Positions 6,445-39,950 of a DNA stretch of 45,447 nucleotides are shown one piece after another. The DNA is taken from assembly GCA_014383445.1 (NCBI GenBank), contig JACNHV010000252.1:1-45447 (forward strand), given 5' to 3'. This DNA comes from Candidatus Desulfobacula maris (lineage in GTDB: Bacteria > Desulfobacterota > Desulfobacteria > Desulfobacterales > Desulfobacteraceae). A program made the position numbers and the translations under genes. The notes under the pieces are model-generated. The model was not told where the DNA came from. It saw only the letters and a program-made list of their open reading frames with translations, and searched no databases. Numbering within the stretch: the stretch's first letter is position 1; each line of letters begins with the position of its first letter.

Positions 6445-8667
6445 CTATTCTTCAAGTTCTGATATGGTATAACTGGCAGCTCTCAGTTTTTCTGTAGTAA
6501 TACGAGCAATTGCCGCATACAAATTTAATGTAATTTCTGGGTAATCATTCTTTAATTTATAAAAATTAGCACTGCTCAATTTGAAACAGGTGGAAAGTTC
6601 ACGGGTAATTATATCTGCTGACCTCGGTGACCCATCTATGAAAGACATTTCACCGAACATCGAACCGAATGTGCTTGTTAGTACTCTTTTTTTACGTTCT
6701 TTCGAGATCGGGATAATGACATCCACCGATCCTTTAACCAGGAAAAACATGGACTTTTCATTATCACCAAAGGATATTATTTTTTCATCTGCACGAAAAT
6801 CTACCTTTTCGAGATAGTTTGAAATAATCCTACTCTCTTTTTCATCAATCCCTTTATATTTAAAGAACTCATCCAGAGAGATTTCCTGGGGCAAATCAAG
6901 TTCATCTTTATGTTTTTCTAATATACTATCTTCAAAGTATTCTACGGCAAGACTAGTGTCGGAGAAGAATCTTTCTTCTCCAAAAATAGAAACCAATCCT
7001 TCTTCTGAAAGCAGACCCCAATGATTGCTGTGGGGATCCATATAGCTCATGGCGAGTTCGATTTTTTTTTGTTTGAATAATAAATATGTTTGTCCGAGGA
7101 CTTGACATCCGGTGCTGTCGATCCTGTTAATTCGTTTCATATCAAGAACAATATATTGTCCCCCTTCCTTTACAACTTTATCGATCTCGTCAACAAGATT
7201 ATCTGCTGACCCGAAGAAAAGAGCCCCTTCCAAGCCTATAACATATATTTTGTCCCTTTCTTTTTGCAAAATTTCAATTGCTTTTTCGAAGCGTTGTTTT
7301 TTGGAACTAATCTGTGATCCTCGATGTATACTTCTAATAATTGAACGGCCCATCTGGGCGATAAATACTAATATGGAAACAAGAATTCCCACAACAACGG
7401 CCATTATGAGGTTTAGCATGAGAACTACAATCATTACTGTTACAATAATAAATAAATCGTGCAGCAATTGACTTTTTTCTATACTCTTTCTTTGGTATAG
7501 CTTTTTTATGATCTGAACGCTTCTATTATTCATTAATTGTATGCATATATATATTACGACCCCTGCCATGACTGCCTTTGGAATGTAGCCAATCGGCTTG
7601 CCAAGGATCAAAATAAAAAAGAGAATGAATATTCCACAGAATACCCCTGAAAATTTAGTCCTTCCCCCGGAGAAATGATTTATCGAAGAGCGTCCCATAT
7701 AACCTGAAACTGGAATTCCACCGAATATTCCACCAACTGAATTTCCAATTCCCTGGGCAATCAACTCTTTATTGCCTTGTGGACGTGATTGAGTAATATT
7801 TTGAATCGAAACAATTGTTAATAATGACTCAATAGATCCGAGAATTGCAATGGCAAAGGCAGCGGGTATGATAATGGGAAAAAGGTAAGAAACAACTTCA
7901 TCTGGGAAAATATTAAAAAATGTAACCAGGTTGGATAAAGAAGGAACGGCAAAAGGAACTTCACCGATAACCGGGCCCAGCGTATCGACAGAAAAAGTGA
8001 ATTTAAGGATGTGGTAAATAAATGTTCCCCCTATTATACTTAAAATATTAGCCGGGAATTTTGTTTTATATTTGTTTCCAAAAAACATTATCAGCATAGT
8101 GCAGAGTGTAACAATAAGAGTTGGAATTGATATTTGTGTCAGGTTATTTAATATTCCATTTGAGTTGTTCATTTGTATTCCGAGACAAGGCCCGATTTGA
8201 CCGACAATAATCAGTAGAGATGTTCCATTTATAATTCCCAGGATAACAGGATATGAAATATTTTTTACAAGAGTTCCGAGACGTAACAGCCCAAAAAATA
8301 TTTGGAAAACTCCGCTAAGGAAAACAACGAAAAAGGTGATGGAAATTACCGAAAGCATGTCGAGATTTACAGCGGGATTAAAATTGTTGGTATTGATGAG
8401 TTTAGTGATTACAGCGGCAAAAATAAATGCTGCCGGAACAACAGGTCCGGATATCATTATTTTTGTGCTTCCAAAGATTGAGGCCAGCAATCCGTTGAAA
8501 ACTGAAGAGAACATCCCTGCGATAATACCGACCCCGACGAATTTAGGCCCGAGTGGGGCGAATGAGATCATTCCATAAACGATGTTACCACCTAAGGATA
8601 ATATAGCTGCAGCAAGAGCTCCTGATAAATCTCCCTTAAAGTTTGATAAATCATATTTTTTCTTCAT
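6445..8667 (-). CDS. SulP-family anion transporter with STAS and cNMP-binding domains
   Basis: This 740-residue inner-membrane protein has a SulP permease core (about residues 15-415, many hydrophobic helices). A C-terminal STAS domain follows (about 460-560, with EGALFFGSADNL and RIDSTGCQVL). A cyclic-nucleotide-binding domain ends it (about 610-735, cassette FGEMSFIDGSPRSADI). SulP proteins move sulfate, bicarbonate or other anions; the substrate cannot be read here. The cNMP domain suggests gating by cAMP or c-di-AMP-like ligands. The STAS domain keeps the D-S-T-G site where antagonist proteins are phosphorylated. ATG at 8667 has GCAGGT upstream; an in-frame ATG at 8691 has a ribosome site that abuts it and is less likely. 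It lies 104 bp after the formyltransferase gene and could share its transcript. Confidence 0.9.
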   Translation of the reverse strand: MKKKYDLSNFKGDLSGALAAAILSLGGNIVYGMISFAPLGPKFVGVGIIAGMFSSVFNGLLASIFGSTKIMISGPVVPAAFIFAAVITKLINTNNFNPAVNLDMLSVISITFFVVFLSGVFQIFFGLLRLGTLVKNISYPVILGIINGTSLLIIVGQIGPCLGIQMNNSNGILNNLTQISIPTLIVTLCTMLIMFFGNKYKTKFPANILSIIGGTFIYHILKFTFSVDTLGPVIGEVPFAVPSLSNLVTFFNIFPDEVVSYLFPIIIPAAFAIAILGSIESLLTIVSIQNITQSRPQGNKELIAQGIGNSVGGIFGGIPVSGYMGRSSINHFSGGRTKFSGVFCGIFILFFILILGKPIGYIPKAVMAGVVIYICIQLMNNRSVQIIKKLYQRKSIEKSQLLHDLFIIVTVMIVVLMLNLIMAVVVGILVSILVFIAQMGRSIIRSIHRGSQISSKKQRFEKAIEILQKERDKIYVIGLEGALFFGSADNLVDEIDKVVKEGGQYIVLDMKRINRIDSTGCQVLGQTYLLFKQKKIELAMSYMDPHSNHWGLLSEEGLVSIFGEERFFSDTSLAVEYFEDSILEKHKDELDLPQEISLDEFFKYKGIDEKESRIISNYLEKVDFRADEKIISFGDNEKSMFFLVKGSVDVIIPISKERKKRVLTSTFGSMFGEMSFIDGSPRSADIITRELSTCFKLSSANFYKLKNDYPEITLNLYAAIARITTEKLRAASYTISELEE

Positions 8668-8771
8668 AATACCTGCTTTTAATAAATTCATCCCTTAAGA
8701 AAGTGTCCATATTTTTTCTATCAGATCAATCTATTTTTATCCAGTCTAACCTTACTCGATTGTGCTCAAAA

Positions 8772-9578
8772 TTATGATCCGAACCTGTTAAGAATTTCAA
8801 GATATTCCTGATTATCTATTAATTTAAGTCCATTTCTGCAAAATCGTTTGAATTCCTCAGAAGTCGGGAATGTGTAATATCTTTTTCCAGATTCATCCTG
8901 GGGGAAAGTTTCAATTCTTTTCTGACTTTTATATACCAACAAGAGTTGTTCAAAAAGGTCAATGCCATGGGGATATAATTGACACATATGCCATAAAACT
9001 GACTTGGAATAATCAACAGGCATCATTTTGATACCTATAAGCGGACCCGTATCTATTCCTACATCCACCTTGTGCAGGGTACAACCCACATTGATATCTC
9101 CATTGAACATTGCCCTGAATGGAGCATAAACGCCCCTGTATTCCGGCAAAGATCCAGGATGTATATTGTATATACCTAAGTTGGGAATATCTATAATATT
9201 TTTTTTAAATATAAAATCATTTCGAATTGATAAAATAATATCAGGATTAATATTCCTTATATATTTTTCCCAGTCGTTGGAATTAATATCATCAGAAATT
9301 ACAACAGGGATATTATATTTCTTTTTGATCTGGTTAAAGGTGAGATATTCTGAGAGATATTCTTCCTTATCATTTTTCTCAAGCAATGGGAAAATCTGAT
9401 GAATAAGCAAATCTCTTTCATAAAAGATAAAATCAGCGGACTCTTTTATTTGTCTTTCTGTTGCGGTAAATTTATCGCTCAGGATCACATGGTATTCATG
9501 GGATGCAATATGTTTCAGCACATAATTTAGTGCTATACACCCTTCCAGATCACGCTTGATACAAACAATGATTTTCAT
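8772..9578 (-). CDS. Formyltransferase-family enzyme (Fmt/PurN-like N domain)
   Basis: This 268-residue enzyme has the formyltransferase fold of PurN, Fmt and sugar-N-formyltransferases. The signature is clear: Asn138 and His140 in YNIHPGSLPEYRG, and Asp176 in VDVGIDTGPLIG, matching the catalytic Asn-His-Asp triad. It should transfer a formyl group from 10-formyl-tetrahydrofolate to an amine. It lacks the Fmt C-terminal tRNA-binding domain and does not look like housekeeping Fmt or PurN. Its ATG overlaps the stop of the ATP-grasp gene (ATGA, 9575-9578), so the two are translationally coupled and probably act on the same small molecule. The acceptor is unknown. Confidence 0.85.
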   Translation of the reverse strand: MKIIVCIKRDLEGCIALNYVLKHIASHEYHVILSDKFTATERQIKESADFIFYERDLLIHQIFPLLEKNDKEEYLSEYLTFNQIKKKYNIPVVISDDINSNDWEKYIRNINPDIILSIRNDFIFKKNIIDIPNLGIYNIHPGSLPEYRGVYAPFRAMFNGDINVGCTLHKVDVGIDTGPLIGIKMMPVDYSKSVLWHMCQLYPHGIDLFEQLLLVYKSQKRIETFPQDESGKRYYTFPTSEEFKRFCRNGLKLIDNQEYLEILNRFGS

Positions 9579-10663
9579 AAGAAATTAATATCCAAATAAT
9601 AATCAGTATTGAGCATATGCCTGTTATACTCATTTTCAATAAAGATCTTTAACATGTGATATGCATTGCAGGAATCATATTTTTTCTTATACGCTTCAAT
9701 AAACCCCCTTAAAGCAGGGTTGCAATTATTTTCAAGAAAATATATTTCCTTTTCTGCCGTAATTATAAAATCCATTCTTGATAAATTTTGGCAATCAATG
9801 TCTTTAAAAACCTTACGGACAAATTCACTTATGGCAGGGATTTCTTCTTTTAAAAAAAAATCATGGGATTTTTCAATGACCTTATATTTATCCTGCGTAC
9901 TTAAAAAGGCGTTTTTTTTTTCAAATTGCTTTGTGGCCAGGATATCAACGGTTCCATCCTTTTCCATACAATAGCAGCCATACTCCTCACCCTGGATATA
10001 TTCCTGAATAATAGCCCAGCGATCATACTCAAGAATTTTTTCAACAAGATCTTTAATTGCTCCATGGTTTTGTTTGTAACACTGAAACATCATTGTATAA
10101 ATACTTGAGCCCAAAGAATTGGGTTTGACAATAATCCGTTGATTTTCAAACGCTGTAAAAGCCTTTTCCAACTCTTCCACACAAGTGATATACACAGTGT
10201 TTGGAATTTTAATATCTGAATAATTTGTACCCACAAATTGATTCAGATGAAACTTACTTCGACAAATACCAAAACTCAAGGACGAACCAAAAGTACCTTT
10301 AAGTGCATAATTCTGGGCTATGCTTGTAAATCGTCCGTCTATTCCTATGGATCCATCACAAATAAGGTAAACAAATTCATTATTTTCCTTGATCATGGAA
10401 AAGGCATCCATAAGGCTATAAGAAGTTGTACATTCAGAATTAAAATAAAATTCGGCTGGTTTTATTAAATCAACTGAAGAAACCACCACTTTACCATTTC
10501 GTTTTATGTAGTATATACTTGACAACTCAATTTCATCATCTGTTGCTGCCGATTGTATATCTATATAAAAATTTTTAAAACTGAAAATACTGACATCATG
10601 TTCTGCGTATAGGCCACCAAATACCGCTGCAATTTTTTTTGGATATTGTATTTCCAATTCCAT
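9575..10663 (-). CDS. D-Ala-D-Ala-ligase-like ATP-grasp enzyme
   Basis: This 362-residue protein resembles D-alanine-D-alanine ligase. The N-terminus reads AAVFGGLYAEHDVSIFS, the Ddl FGGxSxExxVS motif. A central ATP-grasp fold follows, and the metal-binding Asp, Glu and Asn are kept in RMDFII and FLENNCNP. The Ddl substrate-loop consensus NTxPGMT is replaced by NCNPALR, so the second substrate may differ from D-Ala. The protein is somewhat longer than typical Ddl. It should form an amide bond between two amino-acid-like substrates using ATP. It is coupled to the formyltransferase by a 4-bp overlap and sits 33 bp after the binding-protein gene. A cell-wall ddl would normally lie with mur genes; none is here. 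Confidence 0.82.
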   Translation of the reverse strand: MELEIQYPKKIAAVFGGLYAEHDVSIFSFKNFYIDIQSAATDDEIELSSIYYIKRNGKVVVSSVDLIKPAEFYFNSECTTSYSLMDAFSMIKENNEFVYLICDGSIGIDGRFTSIAQNYALKGTFGSSLSFGICRSKFHLNQFVGTNYSDIKIPNTVYITCVEELEKAFTAFENQRIIVKPNSLGSSIYTMMFQCYKQNHGAIKDLVEKILEYDRWAIIQEYIQGEEYGCYCMEKDGTVDILATKQFEKKNAFLSTQDKYKVIEKSHDFFLKEEIPAISEFVRKVFKDIDCQNLSRMDFIITAEKEIYFLENNCNPALRGFIEAYKKKYDSCNAYHMLKIFIENEYNRHMLNTDYYLDINFL

Positions 10664-10696
10664 TTTGGTTCCTATTTAATAGAAATAATTAAATTT

Positions 10697-11854
10697 TCAT
10701 TCTGCGACTTCAATTTCATTAAAAATCTCATCTGCTGCACTGAGAATATCCACAGACGGATTAAAACCAATTTTTTCAGCCTCAGCAATATTGATTGCTA
10801 TTTTGGGAGGGTCTTCAAAAACTTGAACCAGGTCACCCGGAGCAGCACCATTAAAAACCTTTGCAATTGTTTCAGCATGAAACATGGATATATATTTGTA
10901 ATTTGCCTGGGAAATACTCATGAGAACGCCATGTTTTACTTCATTGGATCCGCCCTGGGAGAATGTTGGAATTTCATTTTCAGTTAATGGTTTCATTAAC
11001 TGAGGAAGACTTTTTAAGGTTACCCCTGTCTGTACCGTAATATATACTGCATCCACTTTTTGGGCCAGTTTCTTATGACATTCTACAGTCATATCTATCA
11101 ATTTCTGCCCCTCCACTTTATCTGGCAAAAGACATTTTTCTACTTTAAATCCCAACTGGGATGCCATAGCCTCAATATCTTCTACAGCAGCATAGCTTCG
11201 ACCTACAACAGTATCAATGTATGCAATCCCTAGTTTTTCAAACCCCACAATATCATGGAAAAGACTGATTTGTCTTTGAAAACGTGTAGGATCAACCCTT
11301 GCATGAACATGACTAAACCCTGAATCTTGTTCGCTAATAATTATTTTTGCCTGAATGGGATTACTTGTAGAGCATACAATGGTTGGTACGGAATGTTCAT
11401 TATTTGCTAAATCCTGCCCTGCCCATGTACCATTGGCAATTATAAGATCAATATCTTTTTTATTGTTCAGCCGTTTTATGATTTCTGATTTATTTTTCGT
11501 TCTCAACTCACTTTTCCAGCCAGAAGACCAATATGCATTATCAACAAATTCAATATAGTCGCTTTTAATATTTTTAGAAATCCAATGCCAGAGTTTGGAA
11601 GAATCAGTTGGGTCTTCAAAATCAGGGATATTAATTTGTTCGATCCACCCGAGTTCGGCAAGACTTCCGACAATACCTTTGAGTATAGTCGGATACATTG
11701 AATATTTTCCGCCCTCAAGATAGCCAATCTTATATTTTTGTGTATTATTTTTTTTAATTGGTTTTATACTGAATTTGTCAGAAGCAAAAGAATATTGAAT
11801 GAAGCTCAATAAAATGAAAAGAATTAATAATAATGAAAATTTATTTTTACCCAT
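10697..11854 (-). CDS. Orphan ABC_sub_bind periplasmic protein 1
   Basis: This 385-residue exported protein carries a signal peptide (residues 1-24, cleavage after SFA) and an ABC_sub_bind fold (PF04392 / COG2984 type). Typical elements are YKIGYLEGG, DLIIANGTWAGQDLA, VYITVQTGV and the C-terminal NPSVDILSAADEI. Family members bind small hydrophobic or amino-acid ligands and normally pair with a permease and an ATPase. Neither is encoded here, so a receptor role for the neighbouring membrane sensors is more likely than uptake. The start has AGGAG upstream. A paralogue at 18603 shares the C-terminal NPSxDILSAADxI motif. The ligand is unknown. Confidence 0.85.
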   Translation of the reverse strand: MGKNKFSLLLILFILLSFIQYSFASDKFSIKPIKKNNTQKYKIGYLEGGKYSMYPTILKGIVGSLAELGWIEQINIPDFEDPTDSSKLWHWISKNIKSDYIEFVDNAYWSSGWKSELRTKNKSEIIKRLNNKKDIDLIIANGTWAGQDLANNEHSVPTIVCSTSNPIQAKIIISEQDSGFSHVHARVDPTRFQRQISLFHDIVGFEKLGIAYIDTVVGRSYAAVEDIEAMASQLGFKVEKCLLPDKVEGQKLIDMTVECHKKLAQKVDAVYITVQTGVTLKSLPQLMKPLTENEIPTFSQGGSNEVKHGVLMSISQANYKYISMFHAETIAKVFNGAAPGDLVQVFEDPPKIAINIAEAEKIGFNPSVDILSAADEIFNEIEVAE

Positions 11855-11977
11855 ATACTTTTCTCCTGCTTAATAATAATTTATAAAGTTATCCATCCTT
11901 ACTGCTGCTTCCCTTAAAGTTTTAATACAAGATTATAACTTAAATAATTTTGTATTAAAATTTATTTTTCAATACTT

Positions 11978-12202
11978 TTACATCAATGCCTCTTTTTTTG
12001 AAACAATTATAAATAATATTGTAAGAAAAATGTGATACATTCCATCATACAAATTTTCCTTAGAGTTATATTTGCTGGTTCCTTTTTTATCCATTGAATA
12101 ATCAGGAATTAAATTTGACGGGATAAATTTTTGAACCTTATCAGGATCTATGCTGTATAAAATTTTTCCATCAGGCAGTGCAATTGATAATGCAATTGTT
12201 TT
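11978..12202 (-). pseudogene. Truncated sensor-domain fragment
   Basis: Between the racemase and binding-protein genes is a 74-codon open frame without a usable start codon; a TGA lies directly upstream at 12203-12205. Its translation is protein-like: ALPDGKILYSIDPDKVQKF, then a hydrophobic segment (MYHIFLTILFIIVS) before the stop. The DGKILYS stretch resembles DTQGKPIYS in the sensor at 15757 and SENNILYS in the MFS sensor at 16577. I read it as the remnant of a related sensor gene that lost its 5' part. The rest of 11855-12219 holds nothing I can support. A chance open frame cannot be excluded. Confidence 0.4.
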
Positions 12203-12219
12203 TCAGGATATTTAAATTT

Positions 12220-13299
12220 TTATTCATCTGACTTTTGTTTATAGATAATACTGGTAAACGGAGAAATAAAACTCTGATGCATACTCATGTAGTTCATTTT
12301 AAATTCAACAAAATCCCCAGGTTTCAAATCTTCCCGGCTATTTGTAAAATCAATGATTGTATAATTACTATTGACACAAACTATCTCCAAACCATCACCC
12401 ACAGGTTGAAGTCCTTCAGGGTATGTGTCACAAATACCAAAATTCATTATTGCTCTTTTCCTCACTCCGGTATGCAGGAACTCAGGTTTATATCCAAATG
12501 CATTTTTACCAATATTTTTTGGCTGATCAATTCTTTTTTCACTTGTTTCCAGTACATCACTTCTAAAAATCAAAACATCATCATGCAAGTCTTTATGTTT
12601 TTTATCAATGGTTGGAATATTGCCAAGAAAAATAGCTTCACCCAGCCTGATTTGATTGATTTTATCAGGCAGGCGACTTGTTTCCAACCAATCAAGCATA
12701 ACAGAACCACCAATTGAGATTGTTTTAACAGGCAAGCTTAATTGCGTTTCTATCTGGATTGCCAATTCCTGCAAAATATTAATATTCTGCTCGTTTGGAA
12801 TCATTCCGGCACAGCACCCTAGATTCGCTCCGATACCAGAAAAATCCAGCCTTAGATTTTTTATTTCATGGATTTGTTTTACTATATCAACAACATTTTC
12901 CGGCAAAACCCCTTCACGCAAATCACCTGTATCAACCATAAGAATAATGTTGTGAGATCTGTCTTCCTCAATCAATACCTCATTTATCTTCTTTATGACT
13001 GATATTTCAGAATTAAAACTTGTGCCAAAATATTGAATAATATTGCTGAGGTTATGAATGGAGGGCAAAGATATAAAAACAGGCTTTTGGGGGAATACTT
13101 TTTCATAGGTATTATTTACAGGCAGGTTGGAAAATCCGACATTATCAATACCATTTGATATCATTTCATGAATAATAATGGGATTTAATCCAGATCCTTT
13201 CAATATACCCGTAATTTTAAGACCAAAATTATTACAATGTTGCACTAAGAATTGTATGTTATGTTTTAGTTTTTTTATGTCTATTGTCAGTTGGGCCAT
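12220..13299 (-). CDS. PLP-dependent amino-acid racemase (ornithine/alanine racemase family)
   Basis: This 359-residue protein fits the COG3457 racemase family (ornithine racemase Orr, YhfX), not classical Alr. Lys34 in GILKGSGLNP is the expected PLP-binding lysine. Other family features are ILMVDTGDLREGVLPE, SGIGANLGCCAG, ISIGGS followed by RLGEAIFLGN, and GVRKRAIMNFG near the C-terminus. It should interconvert L- and D- forms of an amino acid in the cytosol. The substrate may be ornithine, alanine or another amino acid. It follows the SpoIIE phosphatase gene by 113 bp on the same strand and precedes the ATP-grasp and formyltransferase genes, so a D-amino acid may feed those enzymes. No clear Shine-Dalgarno sequence precedes the ATG. 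Confidence 0.83.
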   Translation of the reverse strand: MAQLTIDIKKLKHNIQFLVQHCNNFGLKITGILKGSGLNPIIIHEMISNGIDNVGFSNLPVNNTYEKVFPQKPVFISLPSIHNLSNIIQYFGTSFNSEISVIKKINEVLIEEDRSHNIILMVDTGDLREGVLPENVVDIVKQIHEIKNLRLDFSGIGANLGCCAGMIPNEQNINILQELAIQIETQLSLPVKTISIGGSVMLDWLETSRLPDKINQIRLGEAIFLGNIPTIDKKHKDLHDDVLIFRSDVLETSEKRIDQPKNIGKNAFGYKPEFLHTGVRKRAIMNFGICDTYPEGLQPVGDGLEIVCVNSNYTIIDFTNSREDLKPGDFVEFKMNYMSMHQSFISPFTSIIYKQKSDE

Positions 13300-13412
13300 G
13301 TATTTATTGCCATATCATATAATCATCCAAATTAACCTGACTATCTGTTTTAAGTTCCGTATTCAAATCATTTTCAAATATTTTTTCAAATTGAAATTTA
13401 ACAAAATCAAGA

Positions 13413-15434
13413 CTAAAGTTTATTTCCATTATATTTTATCATCAACATGGCAATATCATCTGATTGAGGCGCTGGGTGTGAGTGTTCCCGTACGCTGTTC
13501 AAGACTGTCTCAACCACTTCATTTGCTGACTTGTCTTTATTTTTTGATACCTGGGAAAGCAATTTTTTATTGGAGTATTGCTCCTCTTTAATATTCATTG
13601 CTTCATTCACGCCATCTGTATAAAGGAAAAAACTCTCTCCAGAAGACAAGAACAATGAATTATCAGAGTATGATATACCCGGCATTGCTCCAACCAGCGG
13701 TTCATTTTTTCCCTCTTTAAAAAATACCTCAGTGTCATTGGGTACAACAATCGGCGGATTATGCCCGCCATTTGCATATTTAATTTCACCGGTTTTTATA
13801 TTCAAAATACCGATAATAAGTGTAACAAACATGGACCTTGGATTATCCGCACTTAAAACATTGTTTATATTGTGCATCATTGCACTGGGTGAATGCTCTT
13901 TTCCACTTAATGTTCTGATCAACGTTCTTGTCACAACCATGAACAATGCAGCCGGAATCCCCTTATCTGAAACATCGCCTAAAGTAAAACACATATGATC
14001 TTTATCAATCATAAAGAAGTCATACAGGTCACCACCAATCTCCTTTGCCGGTATCAAAGTGGCATACAGATCAAATTCCTTGTATTCAGGAAAAGAAGGG
14101 AAGGTTTTAGGCACCATTCCGAGCTGAATTTCTCTGGCAATGTTGAGTTCACTCTCAATTCTTTCTCTTGAAGAAGTTATCTTAATAAGATCTTGAATAT
14201 TTTTACTTAACTCCTGTCTCATCAAGATAAAAGATGAAGCAAGGTCTCCGACTTCATCTTTATATTTGTCCGGTAAATCATCAATGGGTGTTCTCTTTTC
14301 CAACGGCTTTGTAAAATCCAGTTCAGGAAGCTTTTTCGCATATAATGATAATAGATTAAGAGGTTTTGCAATACGGGTCACCAGAATAAAAACAGCAATT
14401 AACCCGGCCATGAACATCAAAAGTATTATTAAGCTCTGTCTTATGACAAGTTTTTTGGCAGGTTTGTTGATTTCATTGACAGGTACCATAACACTTGTAT
14501 ACCATTTTAGCGGTTTGAAATAGTTACAATATGCAATCATGGATTTATTGGTATCATAATTTGATGATATAAAACGAAGTTCTGAAATATCAGATTTTGA
14601 AGATTCTTTAATATCTTCGTAAACAGTATTATTAGTCAATATATTCATGGACAGATGAATATCGTTTTTAATATGTTTTGGAGGCGGAATAAATATATTG
14701 TCATTTGAGTCAAACATATAAACAAATCCATTCTCTGTGATGTTTAACTGCTTGGAATATTGAATGAGTGATTTTATTATTTTCTTTTGTTTAATCTGTG
14801 CTTCAGCTTCAATATCGCTGATATCTATTGATGTTGCTATGGTGTATCCCCATTGGTCTAAAGGCAGAAAAAAGGCTAGTACTGAGTTAGCTTTTCCGTC
14901 ATCAGAGTTGATCATACAAACTGCATAATCTCCTTGTTTTTTTAAATTATTAAAACCCATCACTTCGGATATATTTCTTTGTTTTATATCTTTTACATTT
15001 TTATAGGTTTCATTTGTTATGTTTTTATTGGAACTGGCTAAAACTTGAGAATCTTTGCTTATAATAAAGTAATCAATTGCATCAAAAGGAGCTGCATTTA
15101 ACCATTCAAGTGCATGTTTAACAGCCTGGGGCTCTGGCAGATCTTCCCTTACAGAGCTGTGATAACCCTTGAAAACCGATTCAATCATACTGGCTGCTTG
15201 TTTTAACTGCTGCCTTTTTAAAAGAGTCATTGTCCTCTTATCTGACAGCAGGTTGTGATATTCGTCCTTAATAATAAGATCCAGGGAGTGGAGGATATTT
15301 ATTGCAGACTTTTTCTGAGCTACCAGCATTGCATTCCCAACGTCTCTATTCGTAAAATAGATATTTACGATTGCGCTGATAACCATCACCAGAGTGACAA
15401 AAAAAATGATTTTTCCTTTAATAGTTAAAAACAT
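13413..15434 (-). CDS. Membrane-bound Cache-HAMP-SpoIIE phosphatase
   Basis: This 673-residue transmembrane receptor phosphatase has a first membrane helix at residues 8-26. A large periplasmic region (about 27-325) looks like a double Cache domain, with ALEWLNAAPFDAIDYFIIS and WGYTIATSIDIS. A second helix lies at about 331-350, then HAMP (about 352-415) and a PP2C/SpoIIE domain (about 450-670). Catalytic motifs are intact: EIGGDLYDFF near 465, GDVSDKGIPAALFM, GGHNPP, YTDGVNEA and SDDIAML. It should dephosphorylate a STAS protein after a periplasmic ligand binds. AGGTGA precedes the ATG. As the first gene of the minus-strand racemase operon it probably senses the ligand this locus handles. 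Confidence 0.92.
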   Translation of the reverse strand: MFLTIKGKIIFFVTLVMVISAIVNIYFTNRDVGNAMLVAQKKSAINILHSLDLIIKDEYHNLLSDKRTMTLLKRQQLKQAASMIESVFKGYHSSVREDLPEPQAVKHALEWLNAAPFDAIDYFIISKDSQVLASSNKNITNETYKNVKDIKQRNISEVMGFNNLKKQGDYAVCMINSDDGKANSVLAFFLPLDQWGYTIATSIDISDIEAEAQIKQKKIIKSLIQYSKQLNITENGFVYMFDSNDNIFIPPPKHIKNDIHLSMNILTNNTVYEDIKESSKSDISELRFISSNYDTNKSMIAYCNYFKPLKWYTSVMVPVNEINKPAKKLVIRQSLIILLMFMAGLIAVFILVTRIAKPLNLLSLYAKKLPELDFTKPLEKRTPIDDLPDKYKDEVGDLASSFILMRQELSKNIQDLIKITSSRERIESELNIAREIQLGMVPKTFPSFPEYKEFDLYATLIPAKEIGGDLYDFFMIDKDHMCFTLGDVSDKGIPAALFMVVTRTLIRTLSGKEHSPSAMMHNINNVLSADNPRSMFVTLIIGILNIKTGEIKYANGGHNPPIVVPNDTEVFFKEGKNEPLVGAMPGISYSDNSLFLSSGESFFLYTDGVNEAMNIKEEQYSNKKLLSQVSKNKDKSANEVVETVLNSVREHSHPAPQSDDIAMLMIKYNGNKL

Positions 15435-15756
15435 TAAATCACCTATTTGTCTTGGTTAGTTTCCGGATAGGTTTTTTCATAAATGATTTTTCTTTTTATT
15501 AACAGTTTTTTTGGCAATATATTATCACAAACAATTATGTGATAAATTCACCGACTATTTGTGCTATAACATATTCACTTCCGGCAATCAAAGGATAACT
15601 TTCAAATGTTTATTTAACTCTTTGAAGAATATTTCTATCTGCTATCTGTAAGTGCCTATCTCTATTATAATATCTGTTTAGCATCAGTTTTTGCTTGACC
15701 ACATCATACCAGTATGATGATATAGCAGGTCAGGCACTAAAATTGAAGGCTGTTGA
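15435..15756. promoter_or_regulatory. Divergent regulatory region
   Basis: This 322-bp non-coding region separates the minus-strand racemase operon from the plus-strand sensor/transporter genes. A perfect inverted repeat, ttatcaca-N8-tgtgataa, lies at 15522-15545, about 90 bp before the phosphatase start. A second palindrome, catcata-ccag-tatgatg, lies at 15702-15719, about 40 bp before the sensor start. Its right arm contains a TATGAT that could be a -10 element, with a poor -35 (TTGCTT at 15691). The palindromes may be operators for a shared regulator, or just hairpins. Confidence 0.4.
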
Positions 15757-16557
15757 ATGAAGTTACGTAGCAAAATTATGATTGTCACTTTTTTTACGAT
15801 TTTATTTGTCCAGGGAATAAATTGTTTTCTTGGGATTGGTTTTCTGCTAAATAACCTTGAAGAAAATAGTATAAAAAAGTACCAGATCATCGGTAATGAA
15901 ATCCAAAGAAAACTCAATAAATCCTTAATTTTTGGTAAACCATTAACCCATATTAACTATGAAAGACTTCTGTCATATATAATTCCTGAAAATATTGAAA
16001 ATCTGCACATCATTGATACCCAAGGGAAACCCATTTATTCTTTGAAGGAAAATATAAATGAGGGCTCATTTTTATTTCAAGAAACACCGGCTCAAATTAA
16101 AACATCAGAGCATTATAACATTTATATTCCTCTTGAAGTAAAATCTGAGATTAAGGGTAATATTTTAATAATTGTTTCGCTTAAAGAAAATAAAGTAAAA
16201 TTTTTATATCTTGTAAAAAAATCCCTAATCAATTTTTTACTAGTTGTGGTTTTTACTCTTCCGATTTTATATTTTTTGCTCACAATGATTATAAACAAAC
16301 CGTTTATGCGGTATGTAAATAATCTGGAAAGATTAATAGAAAATGAGAATTTTGATGAATTGAAAGATAAGGGGATTGATCTGACCCCCGTTATTAATAT
16401 CCGGAATCAGATCGAAAAAATTAAAAAAGGAGAATGGCTGTTTCAAAAAAACAGAAATATTCATGAAAATTTTGATTTTATTGTTCATGATTCAGAAAAT
16501 ATTTCCCATAACCAGTCGCTTTATAAAAAATTTATAAAATTGTTAAATTCAAATTGA
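15757..16557 (+). CDS. Membrane sensor protein without a recognised output domain
   Basis: This 266-residue protein has a membrane helix at about residues 7-27, a periplasmic region (about 28-148) and a second helix (about 149-173). A short cytoplasmic tail contains a degenerate HAMP-like stretch and ends without any kinase, cyclase or phosphatase domain. The periplasmic part contains IQRKLNKSLIFGKPLTHINY and IIDTQGKPIYS. These line up with the N-terminal sensor of the next protein (KKEIEYALQFGLSIQTLGG, SENNILYS). GAAGG precedes the ATG. It lies 19 bp upstream of the MFS gene and probably works with it, as a dimer partner or a link to the phosphatase. The function is inferred from context only. 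Confidence 0.75.
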   Translation: MKLRSKIMIVTFFTILFVQGINCFLGIGFLLNNLEENSIKKYQIIGNEIQRKLNKSLIFGKPLTHINYERLLSYIIPENIENLHIIDTQGKPIYSLKENINEGSFLFQETPAQIKTSEHYNIYIPLEVKSEIKGNILIIVSLKENKVKFLYLVKKSLINFLLVVVFTLPILYFLLTMIINKPFMRYVNNLERLIENENFDELKDKGIDLTPVINIRNQIEKIKKGEWLFQKNRNIHENFDFIVHDSENISHNQSLYKKFIKLLNSN

Positions 16558-16576
16558 GAATCAGGAATTCACACCA

Positions 16577-18583
16577 ATGTATGGTAGACGACTCATAATA
16601 ATTGTTCTTTTGTTTATTAGTCTTTCCAATCTCATTTACATGTTCTTTAATGTGAAAATGTTCCAGCATGAGTATGAAAATCAGATTATCGAACAGGTTC
16701 AGGAGCTTGGAGATGCAGTAAAAAAAGAAATTGAGTATGCACTGCAGTTTGGACTATCTATTCAAACTTTAGGTGGTATGGATTCCTTTTTGCAATCAAT
16801 ACTGGAGAATTCTCCTGAACTTGTTTATGTTAAAATACTTAGTGAAAACAATATCTTGTACTCAGCATCAAGACAAAATGAGGTTGTACAAGAAATAAAA
16901 ATCAATATACTTGCTTCTGATTCAAAGAATGAAAAAGCCCTGATTTTACTTGGTATAGGCGATGAATTAGGTAAAAAAATTGGGATAATGTTTTTTGATC
17001 TGATTACGATATTTTTAGCAGGGCTTATAATTACCTATGAAATTATAAGGTTTTTTACATCAAAACTGGTTATAATTCCTTTTCAGGAGTCTATTTCTTC
17101 CCTGAATAAAATAGTGAAAAATCTCGATCCAGATACCCACGAGAAATTTCCTTCAGAATATACTTCATTTCTTTCACGATTGAAACACTGTGTAAACATA
17201 ATCATTCTTCAGATTGATGATGTTTATAATAAATTAAATCTGGTTGGGCTGGAAGCAATTTCAACTATTTTTTATGGTAGGGGATTATTGTTAAAAGAGA
17301 TTAATAAGAAAAAATTGTTTTTAAAAAAGATTGTACAAAAAAATTACCAGGTCATAAAAATTATTGATCCTTCCCTTGTTAGACCCATAGTATTTATATT
17401 TTTTTTTAGTTCAAATCTTCATTCATGCTTTCTTCCAATATTTACCAGGGATCTTCTTGCTCAGGATACTTTTCTAACTGGTTTTTTTTCCGATGAAATT
17501 CTTATGGGTCTCCCTATCACCAGTTACATGATAAGTGCCACTGTTTTTATGCTTGCTTCAGGAACAAAACTATTCCAATGGATTCGGCAGGATTATGCTG
17601 TAGGCTTTGCCACCCTTTGTACTTCATTTGGGCTTTTTATATGTGGAATCTCAGAAAATATTGTACAGCTCATTCTCGGAAGAGTTATTTGTGCTATTGG
17701 ATTCGCAATTGTTGTCATATATTGTAAACAATTTATTATTAATAATTCCAGCGAAAAAGATAGATCTTTTTATCTTGCCGGTTTTAATTCCGCTTTTGCC
17801 GGGGGCTTGTTTTGCAGTATTATTTTTGGAAGTATAATGGCAGATTATTTTTCCTACCGATTTGTTTTTTTCTCAGCTTCGATCATGATCCTTTTAATAT
17901 TTTTTTTTGATTATATGGTATTGTCTAAGAATCTTCCAATCGGCAACCAAATTGAAAACACAGAAAAAATTGGGGTTTTGAACTTTTTAAAGTATGGGTT
18001 TAATGACAAAAACCTTATCTGCATACTTATACAGAGTGTTATCACAAGGATAACTTTTATCGGTTTTTTTTACTATTCATTGCCGATTGTTTTAAAACCA
18101 GATTTTACTTATTCAGACATCGGAAGGATAATGATGTTTTATGGTTTGCCGGGTATTCTTTTTGCGAGCATTATTAACAAAAGAATCAAAAGAGTAGAAC
18201 AAAGCAAATTTTTCGTGATAGTATCAAATATTGCTCTGGGGATTTCTTTTATGATGTTTAACTATTTTATGTCTGGTTCTACAATGTTTAAAGCATGCTC
18301 GATTATATTCATTCTGTTGCTCCTTGGAATTTCAAACAGCATATCGTTTCCTTCTCAGTTAAGACTTTTTTTAACAACTAAGACCGCTAAAACTATAGGA
18401 ACTAGAACGTCACTTGCAGTATATCATTCAATTGAAAGAATAGGCAGCAGTTTTGGTCCAATTGTTTTTGGATATTTTGCAGCTTGCTATGATATAAACA
18501 TGGCAGTGGTTCTTGGAGGATTATTATGTATTTGTGGAAATTTGGTATTTATGATATTTTTCAATCTCAGAAATTCAAATTGA
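16577..18583 (+). CDS. MFS transporter fused to an N-terminal membrane sensor
   Basis: This 668-residue membrane protein has two parts. Residues 1-165 form a sensor unit: a helix at about 8-25, a periplasmic segment and a second helix at about 140-162, then a HAMP-like linker to about 265. Residues 270-668 are a major facilitator superfamily permease with about 12 helices. MFS members export or import small molecules by proton coupling; substrate and direction cannot be read here. The sensor part resembles the whole periplasmic domain of the preceding protein. A sensor-transporter fusion suggests that transport is set by a periplasmic signal, perhaps through the orphan binding proteins. It forms an operon with 15757 and 18603 (19-bp gaps). 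Confidence 0.85.
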   Translation: MYGRRLIIIVLLFISLSNLIYMFFNVKMFQHEYENQIIEQVQELGDAVKKEIEYALQFGLSIQTLGGMDSFLQSILENSPELVYVKILSENNILYSASRQNEVVQEIKINILASDSKNEKALILLGIGDELGKKIGIMFFDLITIFLAGLIITYEIIRFFTSKLVIIPFQESISSLNKIVKNLDPDTHEKFPSEYTSFLSRLKHCVNIIILQIDDVYNKLNLVGLEAISTIFYGRGLLLKEINKKKLFLKKIVQKNYQVIKIIDPSLVRPIVFIFFFSSNLHSCFLPIFTRDLLAQDTFLTGFFSDEILMGLPITSYMISATVFMLASGTKLFQWIRQDYAVGFATLCTSFGLFICGISENIVQLILGRVICAIGFAIVVIYCKQFIINNSSEKDRSFYLAGFNSAFAGGLFCSIIFGSIMADYFSYRFVFFSASIMILLIFFFDYMVLSKNLPIGNQIENTEKIGVLNFLKYGFNDKNLICILIQSVITRITFIGFFYYSLPIVLKPDFTYSDIGRIMMFYGLPGILFASIINKRIKRVEQSKFFVIVSNIALGISFMMFNYFMSGSTMFKACSIIFILLLLGISNSISFPSQLRLFLTTKTAKTIGTRTSLAVYHSIERIGSSFGPIVFGYFAACYDINMAVVLGGLLCICGNLVFMIFFNLRNSN

Positions 18584-18602
18584 ACATTATAAAAAAGGAG
18601 CT

Positions 18603-19625
18603 ATGCTTAAAATGAAAAAAACAATATATATATCAATATGTTTGATGATTTTTTTTAATGCGGGTACTATCTTTGCCGACGAAAAAAAATATAAAATTTT
18701 ATCAATTCAACACCAGAGTTTCATTCCATATAGCAGGTCTTTAAAAGGATTTGAAAACGGCATAATAGAATCAGGTTACAAAGATAAAGTTGATATAATA
18801 CAGTATAACGCCATGGGAGATTTAAAAGCTTTGGATATATATATTGAAAAAATTAAAAATGGGGATGATATAGACATTATTTTTTCCATTGGTACCCAGG
18901 CAACAAAAAGAGTAATTAAGAACATAAAAAATATTCCTATTGTATTCACAGATCTTGGTACACCGGAATATTCTGGAATTGTAACAGACTGGAAAACTTC
19001 CAATGCAAATTACACAGGTGTGGAAACAAGGAATTATATTGCAATTGGAATAAATCTGCTTCATGAATTAATTGCGTTTAAAAAAATAGGGATGATATAT
19101 CTGAAAGGATCTCCCAGTCATGAAGGTGCGATTAAACAGGTAACAGAGACTGCTAAAACATCAGGGTTTGATTTCATTTACACGGGATTTTCCCTTCGGG
19201 ATAATCAAGGTAAAGAATACCCTTTAGAAATAATTAGAAAAAATATTAAAGAAGCTCTTGATTATGTTGTTCCAAAAGTTGATGTCTTTTATGTCCAGGT
19301 ATCAAAGACATTTAATATAAATTTTGACTTATTTTTTGAAAATTTTAAAACGAACAGTATCCCAAGTGCAGGCGATCCTGTCTATATAAAAAAAGGGCTT
19401 GTTATGGGCATTGGAAGGAATAAGGAACAGTTTGGAAAACAATGTGCAGAATATGTTGTCAAAATTCTGAATGGGACTGATCCAGCCTTGTTGCCTATGG
19501 ATGTCGGCAAATCGTTTTCTATATCGTTGAATACCGAAGCAGCTACAATTGTTGGTTATAATCCTTCAATTGATATTTTAAGTGCAGCTGATGATATTTA
19601 TAAAGAAATGGACGTTAAAAAGTAA
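18603..19625 (+). CDS. Orphan ABC_sub_bind periplasmic protein 2
   Basis: This 340-residue exported protein has a signal peptide ending near residue 25 (TIFA|DE) and an ABC_sub_bind (PF04392) fold. Elements include YKILSIQHQS, IDIIFSIGTQATKRV, IPIVFTDLGTPEYSG and the C-terminal NPSIDILSAADDI. It is a diverged paralogue of the protein at 10697 and likewise lacks a permease and ATPase. AAGGAG lies very close to the ATG at 18603; ATG 18612 is possible. It follows the MFS-sensor gene by 19 bp, suggesting that it presents ligand to the sensor domains. Its last 11 bp overlap the convergent acyltransferase gene. Confidence 0.85.
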   Translation: MLKMKKTIYISICLMIFFNAGTIFADEKKYKILSIQHQSFIPYSRSLKGFENGIIESGYKDKVDIIQYNAMGDLKALDIYIEKIKNGDDIDIIFSIGTQATKRVIKNIKNIPIVFTDLGTPEYSGIVTDWKTSNANYTGVETRNYIAIGINLLHELIAFKKIGMIYLKGSPSHEGAIKQVTETAKTSGFDFIYTGFSLRDNQGKEYPLEIIRKNIKEALDYVVPKVDVFYVQVSKTFNINFDLFFENFKTNSIPSAGDPVYIKKGLVMGIGRNKEQFGKQCAEYVVKILNGTDPALLPMDVGKSFSISLNTEAATIVGYNPSIDILSAADDIYKEMDVKK

Positions 19626-20220
19626 TCGGCACTCCATACCAGGGATAATTTTTAATAAGTTGCGGAATAGATTTTTCAATAATCTTTATTGCATTACTAA
19701 ATTGATTACGATTTAGAACAGCCAGTTCTCGGGGACTGTTTGGAAACAGTTTCGTTTGCCATGAATGAGCAAGAGTATGGCATTGATATCCCAGTTTTTT
19801 CATAAATTTTATTCTTGGTGCCGTCTGGTAAATAGGGCTCATCACAGTATTAATATCATGATCTATTGCAGCTATTAAGCAATAATATCTTAAAATTTGA
19901 TTCAGGCCTTTTCCCTGATAGGATTTTTTTGTTACAGCACTATTAAAAACAAGTGCGGGAAAACTTATTTTAACCGGGAGATCACATTCTAGGACATGGG
20001 TAGCTTGTTTTTTATTAAAAACCGGGATTACACGAATTGTTGCGATAACTTCATTACCTTTATGCAATACCTCAATAACATTATTATTATCATCAATTTC
20101 GTTCCATTTTAAAAGTTCAGGTTTTAACAGTTTGAAATCTTTTGATCTACTGAATTCTGTCAATCGAAGATCAGTTATCTTATCGTGATCTTTTTCTGAT
20201 GCAATCCTTATCTGGTTCAT
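19615..20220 (-). CDS. GNAT-fold N-acyltransferase
   Basis: This 201-residue protein has GNAT features. The acyl-CoA-binding motif is AVTKKSYQGKGLNQILRYY (about residues 95-113, the Q-x-x-G-x-G/A loop after beta-4). A C-terminal stretch (SPIYQTAPRIKFMKKLGYQ) is typical of the family. The general layout recalls N-acyl amino-acid synthases (FeeM-like) and autoinducer synthases, but I cannot prove this. It would acylate an amine with a CoA- or ACP-linked acyl group. It converges with and overlaps the binding-protein gene by 11 bp, which ties it to the locus. AGGATAACGT precedes the ATG. A tailoring role for the product of the racemase/ATP-grasp genes is inference. Confidence 0.72.
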   Translation of the reverse strand: MNQIRIASEKDHDKITDLRLTEFSRSKDFKLLKPELLKWNEIDDNNNVIEVLHKGNEVIATIRVIPVFNKKQATHVLECDLPVKISFPALVFNSAVTKKSYQGKGLNQILRYYCLIAAIDHDINTVMSPIYQTAPRIKFMKKLGYQCHTLAHSWQTKLFPNSPRELAVLNRNQFSNAIKIIEKSIPQLIKNYPWYGVPITF

Positions 20221-20539
20221 ACGTTATCCTAAAGTAAAGTTTAAAAATATAGAGAATAAAGTCAAAAAAACAATGGTCCTGAATCACCAATCCTGAATCC
20301 TCTGAAATTTTCAAAATAGCTTGATCTGTCAAAAGCATTTTTTGATCCTGCAAAGGAATACTTAAAAGAGCCAATAAAAAATAAAAACAGACCGGATAAC
20401 GCTTTTCATTAAGAAATCCGCTTTTTAAGCATCATTTATTATAAAAGAAAAAAAAATACACTAAACAACCATTGATTTCAAGCCGATAGTTAATTAGTGT
20501 TAAAAATAATAATTTTCAATTTATTTTATATCTTCAAAA
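20221..20539. other. Intergenic gap after the type VI operon
   Basis: This 319-bp AT-rich stretch lies between the end of the T6SS operon and the start of the acyltransferase gene, both on the minus strand. A 64-codon frame at 20180-20374 has no ribosome site and is rejected. The only structure I can support is the terminator-like hairpin at 20444-20500. Confidence 0.5.
20444..20500 (-). terminator. Probable terminator of the type VI operon
   Basis: Read on the minus strand, acactaa (20500-20494) pairs with ttagtgt (20464-20458) around a 29-nt loop. It is followed at once by a run of nine or more T. It lies about 40 bp past the stop codon of the last T6SS gene. The stem is short and the loop long, so efficiency is uncertain. 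Confidence 0.45.
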
Positions 20540-22006
20540 TTACCATGTAAAAGAAAATTCTATTTTACCGGAACCTGCAAGAATAGATTCCGGCGGTATA
20601 AAAGATATATTAAAGATTTTTTGGTCGTCTAAAGCGGTTCTGTTATCTATAACTAGAATATCATCCGGCGGATTATGTCCGGTTTGTTTGAATAATCCTG
20701 TCAGAGCTGTCCTGATTTCATCTTCCGGCCTGTTACTGGATATGCTTTTTTTCCGGATATCAATGAGAGATTCAATAATGCGGTTGAAAAACAATTGAAA
20801 CTTTATTGAATCACCTGCAAGCGAAGACTCTTTGGGAATAAATACCACATCCTTGTTCTTCATTCCCACAACAGGGGTGATCCCTGCTTCAACAAGTTGC
20901 ATAATTCTGTCTTCAGAAAACAGGGCCTGGGTGGAAGCCGTGCTTTTCCCATCACAATCAACCATGGCAAGATCCTCAATACGATTTGTATTATATCTTG
21001 TAAATCCCATGGGCCAGCCTGAATTGTTAACCGACATGGCGCATAAGGTTCCAATGGCCCATACAGGGGAGACAAAAAGCGGGTGTTCTTCAAAATCATG
21101 GGCAGGCCTTACGGCAAAGCTGTTGCAGTTTGCAAGTAACCATGCAGCACCTGGAAGTGTTTTGATTTTTTTAAATTTTGCATAGGAAACATCGTCAAGA
21201 TGATTTTTTATATATGGAATTTTGTGGATTTGATTAAAATTTTCTATTCTGAAGAAATCGGGTTTTATCCATATACAGGCAGGCAAAAGCATTGTGTCTG
21301 TGAATTGTGTCACTTTTTCCAAAAGTTCAATAGACGGCATGGTATTATCAAAACCAAGGTCAATGAGAACCATATTGGGAATCTCATCCTGCGGCAGTGA
21401 TGCTATCTCATCTAAAACAGTCTCAAGACTGTTATGGGATACAGAAGATATGCTGACACATATCTTTTCAAAACCTTTTATACCTGCCTTTTTAACCAGA
21501 TTCAAAAGTCCTCTCCATGCAGATTCGGTTTTTTGAAATTCCCTGTTTGAAAAAATTTCCCGGATAATGGGAGAGGCATCAGAATCTGTCTGATTTTTCT
21601 TTAACAAACTATCCGATGAAGTATCCGTTACAATTTCAGAACTTGCAACCATGGACAGGATGTCATCTATTTTGCTTTTTTCTTCTTTACCAGATTGAAC
21701 AGATTTGTTTTTTTGACCCGTAGTCTGTGATGATGCATTTGTTTTTGATAGTGATGCTAGGTATGAATTGTTTTTTATTATGGATTCAGGCTTGAAATCT
21801 TTTATTCTTTTGAATTTTAAGGAGACTGCGCCGTCAGGGCAAATATCCAGCGGCAACGGGATATAAAGAACGGGTGACAATTTTTCAATTGCTTCATCAA
21901 TTGAATAGAGATCAACTTCAACAAAATCTGGTTTAAATTTTTCTTCAGGCACAGGGGCAAATGGCCCAAGAGCCAGGATTTTATAGGGAAGTTGTTCATA
22001 GCTCAT
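20540..22006 (-). CDS. TssB-TssC fusion, second sheath-like protein
   Basis: This 488-residue protein looks like TssB joined to TssC. Residues 1-90 (YKILALGPFAP, FKRIKDFKPESII) match the TssB pattern seen at 39951 (LNFNSLKDFDPDAIVDKV). Residues from about 150 match TssC at 38450: FQKTESAWRGL against FQKIESSWRSL, then IWIKPDFFRIENFNQIHKIP against ISAAGSQFFGLDSFEGLPNL, and SYAKFKKI against QYAKWQSF. The C-terminus (LDDQKIFNISFIPPES) resembles a sheath C-terminal domain. Canonical TssB and TssC are intact in the same operon, so this is an extra sheath-like component. The start at 22006 has AGGGAG inside the preceding gene's end. It could be a baseplate, cap or cargo adaptor; the role is unproven. 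Confidence 0.8.
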   Translation of the reverse strand: MSYEQLPYKILALGPFAPVPEEKFKPDFVEVDLYSIDEAIEKLSPVLYIPLPLDICPDGAVSLKFKRIKDFKPESIIKNNSYLASLSKTNASSQTTGQKNKSVQSGKEEKSKIDDILSMVASSEIVTDTSSDSLLKKNQTDSDASPIIREIFSNREFQKTESAWRGLLNLVKKAGIKGFEKICVSISSVSHNSLETVLDEIASLPQDEIPNMVLIDLGFDNTMPSIELLEKVTQFTDTMLLPACIWIKPDFFRIENFNQIHKIPYIKNHLDDVSYAKFKKIKTLPGAAWLLANCNSFAVRPAHDFEEHPLFVSPVWAIGTLCAMSVNNSGWPMGFTRYNTNRIEDLAMVDCDGKSTASTQALFSEDRIMQLVEAGITPVVGMKNKDVVFIPKESSLAGDSIKFQLFFNRIIESLIDIRKKSISSNRPEDEIRTALTGLFKQTGHNPPDDILVIDNRTALDDQKIFNISFIPPESILAGSGKIEFSFTW

Positions 22007-22007
22007 T

Positions 22008-22319
22008 TTATTCTCCCTTTTGCTTTGAAAGATTATGCTGCAGGGCTGCCTGTGCTTTCTGCAAGGCTTGCTGAAGTGTTTGAACCAGTAAATAAGCATT
22101 ACCCACGGACATTACAATGCGGTTTGAAATGCTGGCATGCTCAGGCATAGCTTTATGATGATTGCCAAATTCTATAGTTACATCCCCAACACCGGCATAT
22201 ACATTAAAAATATCACGATATACATATTCAAGTTCCTGGGGAACATGAAACTGAATCTCTGGCGGTTGAGGATTTTCTTTTTCGTCTTTCGTCTTTCGTC
22301 TTTTTTTTTCTTCAGTCAT
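22008..22319 (-). CDS. DUF3467-family protein
   Basis: This is a small 103-residue protein. After a charged, lysine-rich N-terminus it reads QELEYVYRDIFNVYAGVGDV and SNRIVMSVGNAYLLVQTLQQ. This is the pattern of DUF3467 proteins (beta strands, then R-I-V-M-S and a helix). The family function is unknown. ATG at 22319 has GGAG with a 6-nt spacer; an upstream TTG (22331) lacks a site. Its stop lies one base before the start of the sheath fusion, whose ribosome site is inside this gene, so the two are coupled. Its place among cargo genes suggests an adaptor or assembly role. Confidence 0.78.
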   Translation of the reverse strand: MTEEKKRRKTKDEKENPQPPEIQFHVPQELEYVYRDIFNVYAGVGDVTIEFGNHHKAMPEHASISNRIVMSVGNAYLLVQTLQQALQKAQAALQHNLSKQKGE

Positions 22320-39937: not shown

Positions 39938-39950
39938 TATTGAATCTCCT

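Follow-up and report, generated by a model that had tools for sequence, protein, structure and literature searches.

The window analysed here, a stretch of 45,447 nucleotides that constitutes contig C373 of the 4.85-Mb draft genome of Candidatus Desulfobacula maris, carries a nine-gene locus composed of two modules that belong to one family of gene loci, which we found nowhere described. The family combines a major facilitator superfamily (MFS) transporter and its linked periplasmic sensors with a periplasmic binding protein of the ABC_sub_bind type (PF04392) and amino-acid enzymes; in the window, the transporter and its sensors (15757–18583) are accompanied by two such binding proteins and three recognised enzymes. 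The reading that we find most likely, and give an even chance, is of a diversified system for making and exporting a modified amino acid, often in the D form, which is then detected again by way of the binding protein and a Cache receptor. A literature search, which covered few subscription journals and is weak evidence of absence, returned no account of such a locus.

The family was delineated with a profile built from 13 sensor-MFS proteins (threshold E≤1e-60), which matched 80 of the 389 genomes of the order, the window's own included, and 16 of 395 genomes of the phylum, four genomes being in both sets. Ninety-five loci were fetched around the sensor-MFS gene, and genes were called in 99 loci including the window and L021–L023, with the MFS gene present in 98. 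Only L021–L023 were found through the ligase; all other loci were picked through the sensor-MFS, independently of their enzymes and binding proteins. One or two members of each cluster of neighbouring genes were scanned against Pfam or NCBIfam. Of the 98 loci, 79 encode a binding protein at most 6 kb from the MFS gene, 82 an enzyme and 72 both, the last set representing 39 genera and 27 families. Among the 63 loci with 5 kb of sequence on both sides, 56 have a binding protein, 59 an enzyme and 56 both; the four without an enzyme also lack a binding protein, and three (L021, L094, L145) have an enzyme without a binding protein. Genes of the enzyme clusters are concentrated next to the transporter, making up 81 of 182 genes at less than 500 bp, 26 of 206 at 0.5–2 kb, 9 of 174 at 2–3.5 kb and 2 of 189 at 3.5–5 kb, with 1 of 156 and 1 of 104 in the two intervals beyond.

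The ABC_sub_bind proteins number 96 copies across 79 loci. Among the racemases and epimerases, Orr-like enzymes occur in 23 loci, diaminopimelate (DAP)-epimerase-like enzymes in 18 and alanine racemases in 3; the other enzymes include AstA-type (5 loci), DUF1611/DgcN-type (3), two acyltransferase-like clusters (9 and 8), two ATP-grasp clusters (3 and 2) and a weakly Glu-Cys-ligase-like cluster, c22 (6). A formyltransferase is encoded in 8 loci, in 6 of them within 6 kb of the MFS gene. Two further families, U526 (25 loci) and c17 (8 loci), are free of database matches. U526, of about 490–575 residues, is among the commonest neighbours of the sensor-MFS (loci include L070, L072, L073, L074 and L077); its scanned members have no match in Pfam or NCBIfam, and its profile has none in the PDB. 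No relationship to c22, which takes the place of U526 in some loci, was detectable (hhalign probability 0.3%). Proteins of c17, about 414 residues long and adjacent to the sensor-MFS (for example L076, 166–1410 on the minus strand), have no Pfam, NCBIfam or PDB match, and an ATP-grasp-like label given by eye was dropped because no match supports it. Some loci have none of the 13 enzyme clusters, or have other neighbours. A distant version is seen in L141–L144, where two binding proteins, an ABC-ATPase-containing protein, a Band 7 protein and another formyltransferase lie near the sensor-MFS.

The first module of the window is a minus-strand operon encoding a receptor phosphatase, an Orr-like racemase (ORR), a binding protein, an ATP-grasp ligase (GRASP) and a formyltransferase-like enzyme (FMT). 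GRASP is found in 4 of the 389 order genomes, all of them within the window's genus; besides the one that contains the window, these are G035, G055 (assembled as one contig of 5,197,905 bases) and G039. In G035 (locus L022) one strand encodes, in order, a VipB-like protein, a SpoIIE receptor, the racemase, a double sensor (374 residues), an MFS protein (406 residues), a binding protein, the ATP-grasp ligase and the formyltransferase; G055 (L021) has a shorter version consisting of racemase, double sensor, MFS, ATP-grasp ligase and formyltransferase. The genes that the window has in common with these two genomes are 65–82% identical. Between the racemase and binding-protein genes of the window, where G035 has its double sensor and transporter, lies a scar. 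In tblastn searches it aligns with 58 residues of the G055 sensor (55%, E 8e-19) and with 18 residues at the C-terminus of the G035 MFS protein (67%, E 1e-5); at the DNA level, blastn pairs it with the last part of the G035 MFS gene and the sequence that follows (E 6e-27). These remnants of both genes indicate that the window has lost the racemase operon's own sensors and transporter. When 26 genomes of the genus were searched with the scar stretch, the only matches were to isolated parts of the intact genes, and some genomes gave none; the G039 copy of the operon is cut by a contig end before this point. The ratio of nonsynonymous to synonymous substitution rates (dN/dS) is 0.10–0.19 for the remaining operon genes against G035 and 0.13 for FMT against G039; by this sequence measure these genes evolve under purifying selection, which may predate the loss of the sensor and MFS genes.

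The second module, on the plus strand, is an insertion. Positions 15435 and 20498 of the window align to adjacent bases of G035, and in G043 (L066) and G046 (L074) the receptor is likewise found directly beside the VipB-like gene, so that the site is empty in three relatives and the plus-strand unit lies within 5.06 kb of inserted DNA. The unit is also found in G038, 89% identical and next to the VipB gene, and is cut there by a contig end. Its parts, the sensor, the sensor-MFS, the binding protein and the convergent putative acyltransferase (GNATa), recur together in relatives at 39–64% identity depending on the part, and a Cache-SpoIIE gene precedes the unit in six of six loci (L058–L063); the binding-protein gene of L061 is split. 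The Cache region of the window's receptor is only 28–30% identical to those of the L058–L063 receptors, and the inserted unit now adjoins a receptor of the type that belongs to the racemase module. A search for mobile-element ends yielded no exact 12-mer, direct or inverted, common to 15400–15760 and 20220–20560. In five loci of the putative-acyltransferase type (L058, L060, L061, L062 and L063) a class III nucleotide cyclase-like gene, identified with Pfam in L058, lies divergently beside the receptor phosphatase.

These comparisons revise the picture given by the original prediction, which had placed eight gene families in one module that makes, exports and senses a single product, supposed to be a formylated or acylated D-amino-acid dipeptide. 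The nine open reading frames (ORFs) lie at the positions and on the strands proposed, and the arrangement exceeds chance, as both sub-modules recur in other genomes. The eight families are, however, two separate modules in relatives, joined here by the insertion, and the first has lost its own sensor and MFS genes, which makes a single product of all four enzymes unlikely. No genome other than the window's was seen to have the full set complete; contig ends cut the locus in the two closest relatives, G038 and G039. The make, export and sense logic accords with the pattern across the 98 loci. The finding itself is real, better than described in that it belongs to a widespread family, and worse in that it is not one module.

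Features of the locus and its surroundings in the window.
Feature	Position	Strand	Remarks
Formyltransferase-like enzyme (FMT)	8772-9578	-	Terminal gene of racemase operon; Formyl_trans_N 55.6 bits (Pfam)
Ddl-like ATP-grasp ligase (GRASP)	9575-10663	-	Dala_Dala_lig_C 68.1 bits (cut-off 24)
ABC_sub_bind periplasmic binding protein, first copy (racemase operon)	10697-11854	-	PF04392 63.0 bits
Scar of lost double-sensor and MFS genes	11855-12219	-	tblastn/blastn to G055, G035
Orr-like PLP (pyridoxal phosphate)-type amino-acid racemase (ORR)	12220-13299	-	Ala_racemase_N 59.3 bits
Receptor, dCache-HAMP-SpoIIE phosphatase	13413-15434	-	SpoIIE 162.8, dCache_2 77.6, HAMP 26.6 bits
Insertion carrying second module, between receptor and type VI secretion operon	15436-20497		5.06 kb; flanks adjacent in G035
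Sensor 1, short membrane protein, one PAS/Cache-like periplasmic domain (predicted)	15757-16557	+	Model/fold search
Sensor 2 fused to MFS transporter (sensor-MFS)	16577-18583	+	MFS_1 59.3 bits
ABC_sub_bind periplasmic binding protein, second copy (inserted module)	18603-19625	+	PF04392 106.4 bits
Putative acyltransferase (GNATa), convergent	19615-20220	-	Conserved in nine loci
Type VI secretion operon (window part), ahead of receptor	20540-45445	-	Same strand as receptor

Most of the gene labels first proposed are borne out by Pfam and NCBIfam. FMT is 77–96% identical across three genomes of the same genus, and residues N138, H140 and D176, which from ArnA we take to be catalytic, are unchanged across the four sequences. 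A formyltransferase scan of the named genomes gave three loci, one of which is the G035 contig; judged from their neighbourhoods, the other two are ordinary Fmt genes. GRASP is 65% (G055) and 74% (G035) identical to its counterparts and has a D-Ala-D-Ala ligase as its closest PDB relative (E 2.3e-18). Its match to Dala_Dala_lig_N (24.6 bits) is under the cut-off of 34.6, and that to the D-Ala-D-Ala ligase model TIGR01205 (92.9 bits) is below the cut-off of 245.65. The ligase is not the housekeeping Ddl: the genome holds ten Dala_Dala_lig_C matches, and the best, at 187 bits on contig C134, exceeds that of GRASP, which scores 68.9 bits in this genome-wide comparison. ORR is 76–77% identical to the G035 and G055 copies and scores 267.9 bits against the NCBIfam model racem_Orr (NF040742; cut-off 480), so that it is Orr-like and not Orr; a racemase profile found nothing among PDB sequences at E≤1e-8, and no structural template was used. 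In the receptor, 77% identical to the G035 copy, the Cache, HAMP and SpoIIE domains all exceed their Pfam cut-offs.

The two ABC_sub_bind proteins are not each other's nearest kin. The first is 80.5% identical to its G035 counterpart and the second 59–64% identical to those of L058–L060, L062 and L063. As had been noted, they are orphans: no ABC permease or ABC ATPase was found among the 32 ORFs of the window scanned with Pfam, in which the small ORFs were partly covered. Sensor 1 (43–47% identical to those of L058–L063) has no Pfam match, and its label is correspondingly weaker. Its model, built with four sequences, has a pLDDT (predicted local distance difference test) score of 65, and Foldseek returned nothing at E≤0.001; the ten top matches (E 0.019–0.044) are all extracytoplasmic sensor domains, nine of them from kinases. 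The sensor-MFS is conserved over its full length at about 50% identity in eight genomes of family f1, and its residues 1–262 are similar to the second sensor of relatives. The label "GNAT" is likewise weaker than first proposed: GNATa matches no family in Pfam or NCBIfam, the sole and weak PDB match of its family profile is Drosophila Ebony (E 0.16), and its single-sequence model (pLDDT 37) was not used.

Several observations bear on sensing and specificity. Among 39 receptors of the family the output domain is SpoIIE in 33 and a histidine kinase in 6 (Pfam-confirmed in L072); the Cache-HAMP input is homologous across the receptors while the output is swapped, a Cache match not being seen in one of the 33 SpoIIE receptors (L135). 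A receptor of this type lies within 6 kb in 38 of the 98 loci. HATPase and STAS proteins are the usual partners of SpoIIE phosphatases; both lie near the receptor in relatives, HATPase genes within 6 kb in 11 of the 98 loci and STAS genes in 9 loci. The genome has five ABC_sub_bind matches outside the window, three of which lie beside Cache-HAMP, HAMP-histidine-kinase or Cache-kinase genes (within flanks of about 1.5 kb). At loci L001, L003 and L004 of the same genome, ABC_sub_bind genes adjoin Cache/HAMP sensor, GGDEF or LuxR-type regulators, not ABC permeases.

In 22 loci with U526, a racemase stands in the same position, with the MFS gene and U526 as partners, and is Orr-like in 14 and DAP-epimerase-like in 8, two types that are not homologous. 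Mapped on the MFS tree, racemase type changes 6 times in 41 loci (mean of 200 shuffles 15.3, minimum 12) and amide-group type 12 times in 71 loci (shuffled mean 43.0, minimum 37). Enzyme type thus tracks the transporter, which fits matched specificity and fits joint inheritance equally well. Sensor 1, sensor 2 and the MFS domain are found separate, partly fused and fully fused across loci; as these fusion states vary, the three probably form one complex.

From this material we infer a chain of steps. In each member of the family one or more enzymes would convert a common amino acid to a rarer derivative: a racemase or epimerase would set its configuration, and capping or coupling would fall to a ligase (ATP-grasp or another type) or to a transferase of formyl, succinyl, acetyl or other acyl groups. 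The MFS protein with its linked PAS/Cache-like periplasmic sensors would export the product, which the ABC_sub_bind protein would bind in the periplasm and present to the Cache-HAMP receptor. The SpoIIE output would then act on a STAS/HATPase partner switch, with a histidine kinase taking its place in some relatives. The locus in the window is a composite: a first member (racemase, ATP-grasp ligase, formyltransferase, binding protein and receptor) minus its own sensors and MFS, and, inserted beside it, a second member (sensor, sensor-MFS, binding protein and putative acyltransferase) that came without a receptor of its own. Since the first lacks a transporter and the second a receptor, a single receptor and a single transporter probably serve both.

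A number of points weigh against this scheme. The 13 enzyme clusters were named after the maps had been inspected, and when U526 and c17 are dropped, 55 of the 63 fully flanked loci keep an enzyme, falling to 48 when GNATa is dropped as well. The loci are related by descent. In 19 of the 98 no binding protein is encoded within 6 kb (12 of these have a contig end within 5 kb), in 60 no receptor of this type lies that close, and in G055 both are missing from the vicinity. Of the remaining ABC_sub_bind genes in the genome, one, which itself scores below the Pfam cut-off, has a symporter-type gene as neighbour, and the other has neither sensor nor transporter of these kinds beside it. For the two racemase types beside U526, a single replacement suffices. 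The acidic residue of what we take to be MFS motif A is missing from the window's clade (10 of 10) and present in 75 of 87 other members; with this residue missing, the sensor-MFS of the clade may not transport and may be a receptor instead. Finally, the binding protein could serve uptake, and AstA- and DgcN-type enzymes, like racemases, also serve amino-acid breakdown elsewhere.

The last points lead to the strongest alternative, which we nevertheless consider unlikely: that the locus serves nutrient sensing and uptake, the binding proteins and MFS capturing extracellular D-amino acids or peptides that the receptor senses and the enzymes convert for use. Besides the breakdown roles just mentioned, it draws on the fact that the tryptophan-transporter binding protein TrpX (NF041285) is the best NCBIfam match of both binding proteins, with scores of 90.1 and 68.3 bits that are far under the cut-off of 390. 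The ATP-grasp ligase and formyltransferase of the window, however, build bonds rather than break them, and the recurrent clusters that were scanned, a set without singletons and several other clusters, yielded no deaminase, oxidase or transaminase. MFS carriers, moreover, normally work without a binding protein. It is improbable, too, that the product is a compatible solute, a cell-wall precursor or another non-signal metabolite that is made and released while the receptor monitors its level or stress. A ligase and an acyltransferase could yield acetylated or formylated dipeptides, by analogy with known solutes, but the enzymes vary among loci while the sensors, MFS and binding protein stay constant, which fits specificity better than one solute. 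Equally doubtful is a metallophore of the staphylopine type, in which racemase and ligase would make a D-amino-acid chelator that the MFS exports and the binding protein recaptures: one type of zincophore locus does pair a histidine racemase with MFS efflux and an ABC importer (PMC7438024), yet neither an ABC importer nor an opine dehydrogenase occurs among the 32 scanned ORFs, no match to a Fur-box consensus was found with up to three mismatches (a weak test), and receptor phosphatases or kinases are not a defining part of such loci.

The proposal of a made, exported and sensed product has a possible output in the neighbourhood of the locus. Ahead of the receptor lies a type VI secretion system (T6SS) operon with matches to TssA, TssB, TssC, Hcp, TssE, TssF, TssG, a ClpV-type AAA protein, a VgrG-type hub, PAAR and an IcmF-related protein. 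In L022, L066 and L074 the receptor has a VipB-like gene as its direct neighbour, as it had in the window before the insertion, and the cassette that follows the receptor differs among them: racemase, ATP-grasp ligase and formyltransferase in L022, an AstA type in L066, and racemase and U526 in L074. Because the receptor sits at the end of the T6SS operon, control of secretion is plausible as its output, as a guess from position; the adjacency is seen in 4 of the 98 loci, all of this genus.

Other features of the surroundings may be noted. In the T6SS operon, 20540–22099 encodes a protein of 519 residues that resembles VipA in part and VipB in part, and separate VipA (39951–40436) and VipB (38450–39964) genes are also present in the window. 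A GAF-SpoIIE phosphatase followed by an HATPase_c_2 protein (332–2115) forms a second partner-switch pair near the locus. Adjoining FMT, a SulP transporter with STAS and cyclic-nucleotide-binding domains (6445–8691) is common to G039 and is not at that place in G035 and G055.

Should the proposal hold for the family, no fewer than 39 genera have a testable signalling system in which the genes for synthesis, export and receptor lie together, and U526 and c17, which have no Pfam or NCBIfam name, become open to assay. More tentatively, and with less confidence than in the basic scheme, one may envisage a combinatorial chemical language in bacteria of the Desulfobacterota type. Swappable racemases or epimerases and amide-forming enzymes, U526 and c17 among them, would make lineage-specific signals from modified amino acids, a self-sensing MFS would export them, and periplasmic binding proteins would deliver them to Cache receptors whose output, phosphatase or kinase, can be exchanged. 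Within this genus, the receptor would be wired into the T6SS operon and signal cassettes exchanged beside it. The combination of an MFS with linked sensors, an orphan binding protein and exchangeable enzymes is an unusual architecture, whether or not the product is a signal.

The known systems each resemble part of this arrangement. SiaA-type SpoIIE systems have a membrane SpoIIE phosphatase with periplasmic input and, to our knowledge, contain no binding protein, MFS or amino-acid enzymes. Against the SiaA model (NF038263) the score here is 58.7 bits, with a cut-off of 700. The staphylopine and bacillopaline zincophore loci (PMC7438024) combine an amino-acid racemase with an MFS efflux protein; in contrast with them, no nicotianamine-synthase-like gene, opine dehydrogenase or ABC importer was found in the window, which has instead sensors, an orphan binding protein and a receptor phosphatase. 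TrpXYZ-type ABC transporters share the PF04392 binding proteins and differ in their ABC permease and ATPase, which have no equivalent nearby here. LuxP-LuxQ, which reads AI-2 in Vibrio, is similar in joining a periplasmic binding protein to a membrane receptor with a Cache-type periplasmic region; in the family presented here, by contrast, the binding proteins are of the PF04392 type, the output is mostly SpoIIE, and the genes for synthesis and transport lie in the same locus.

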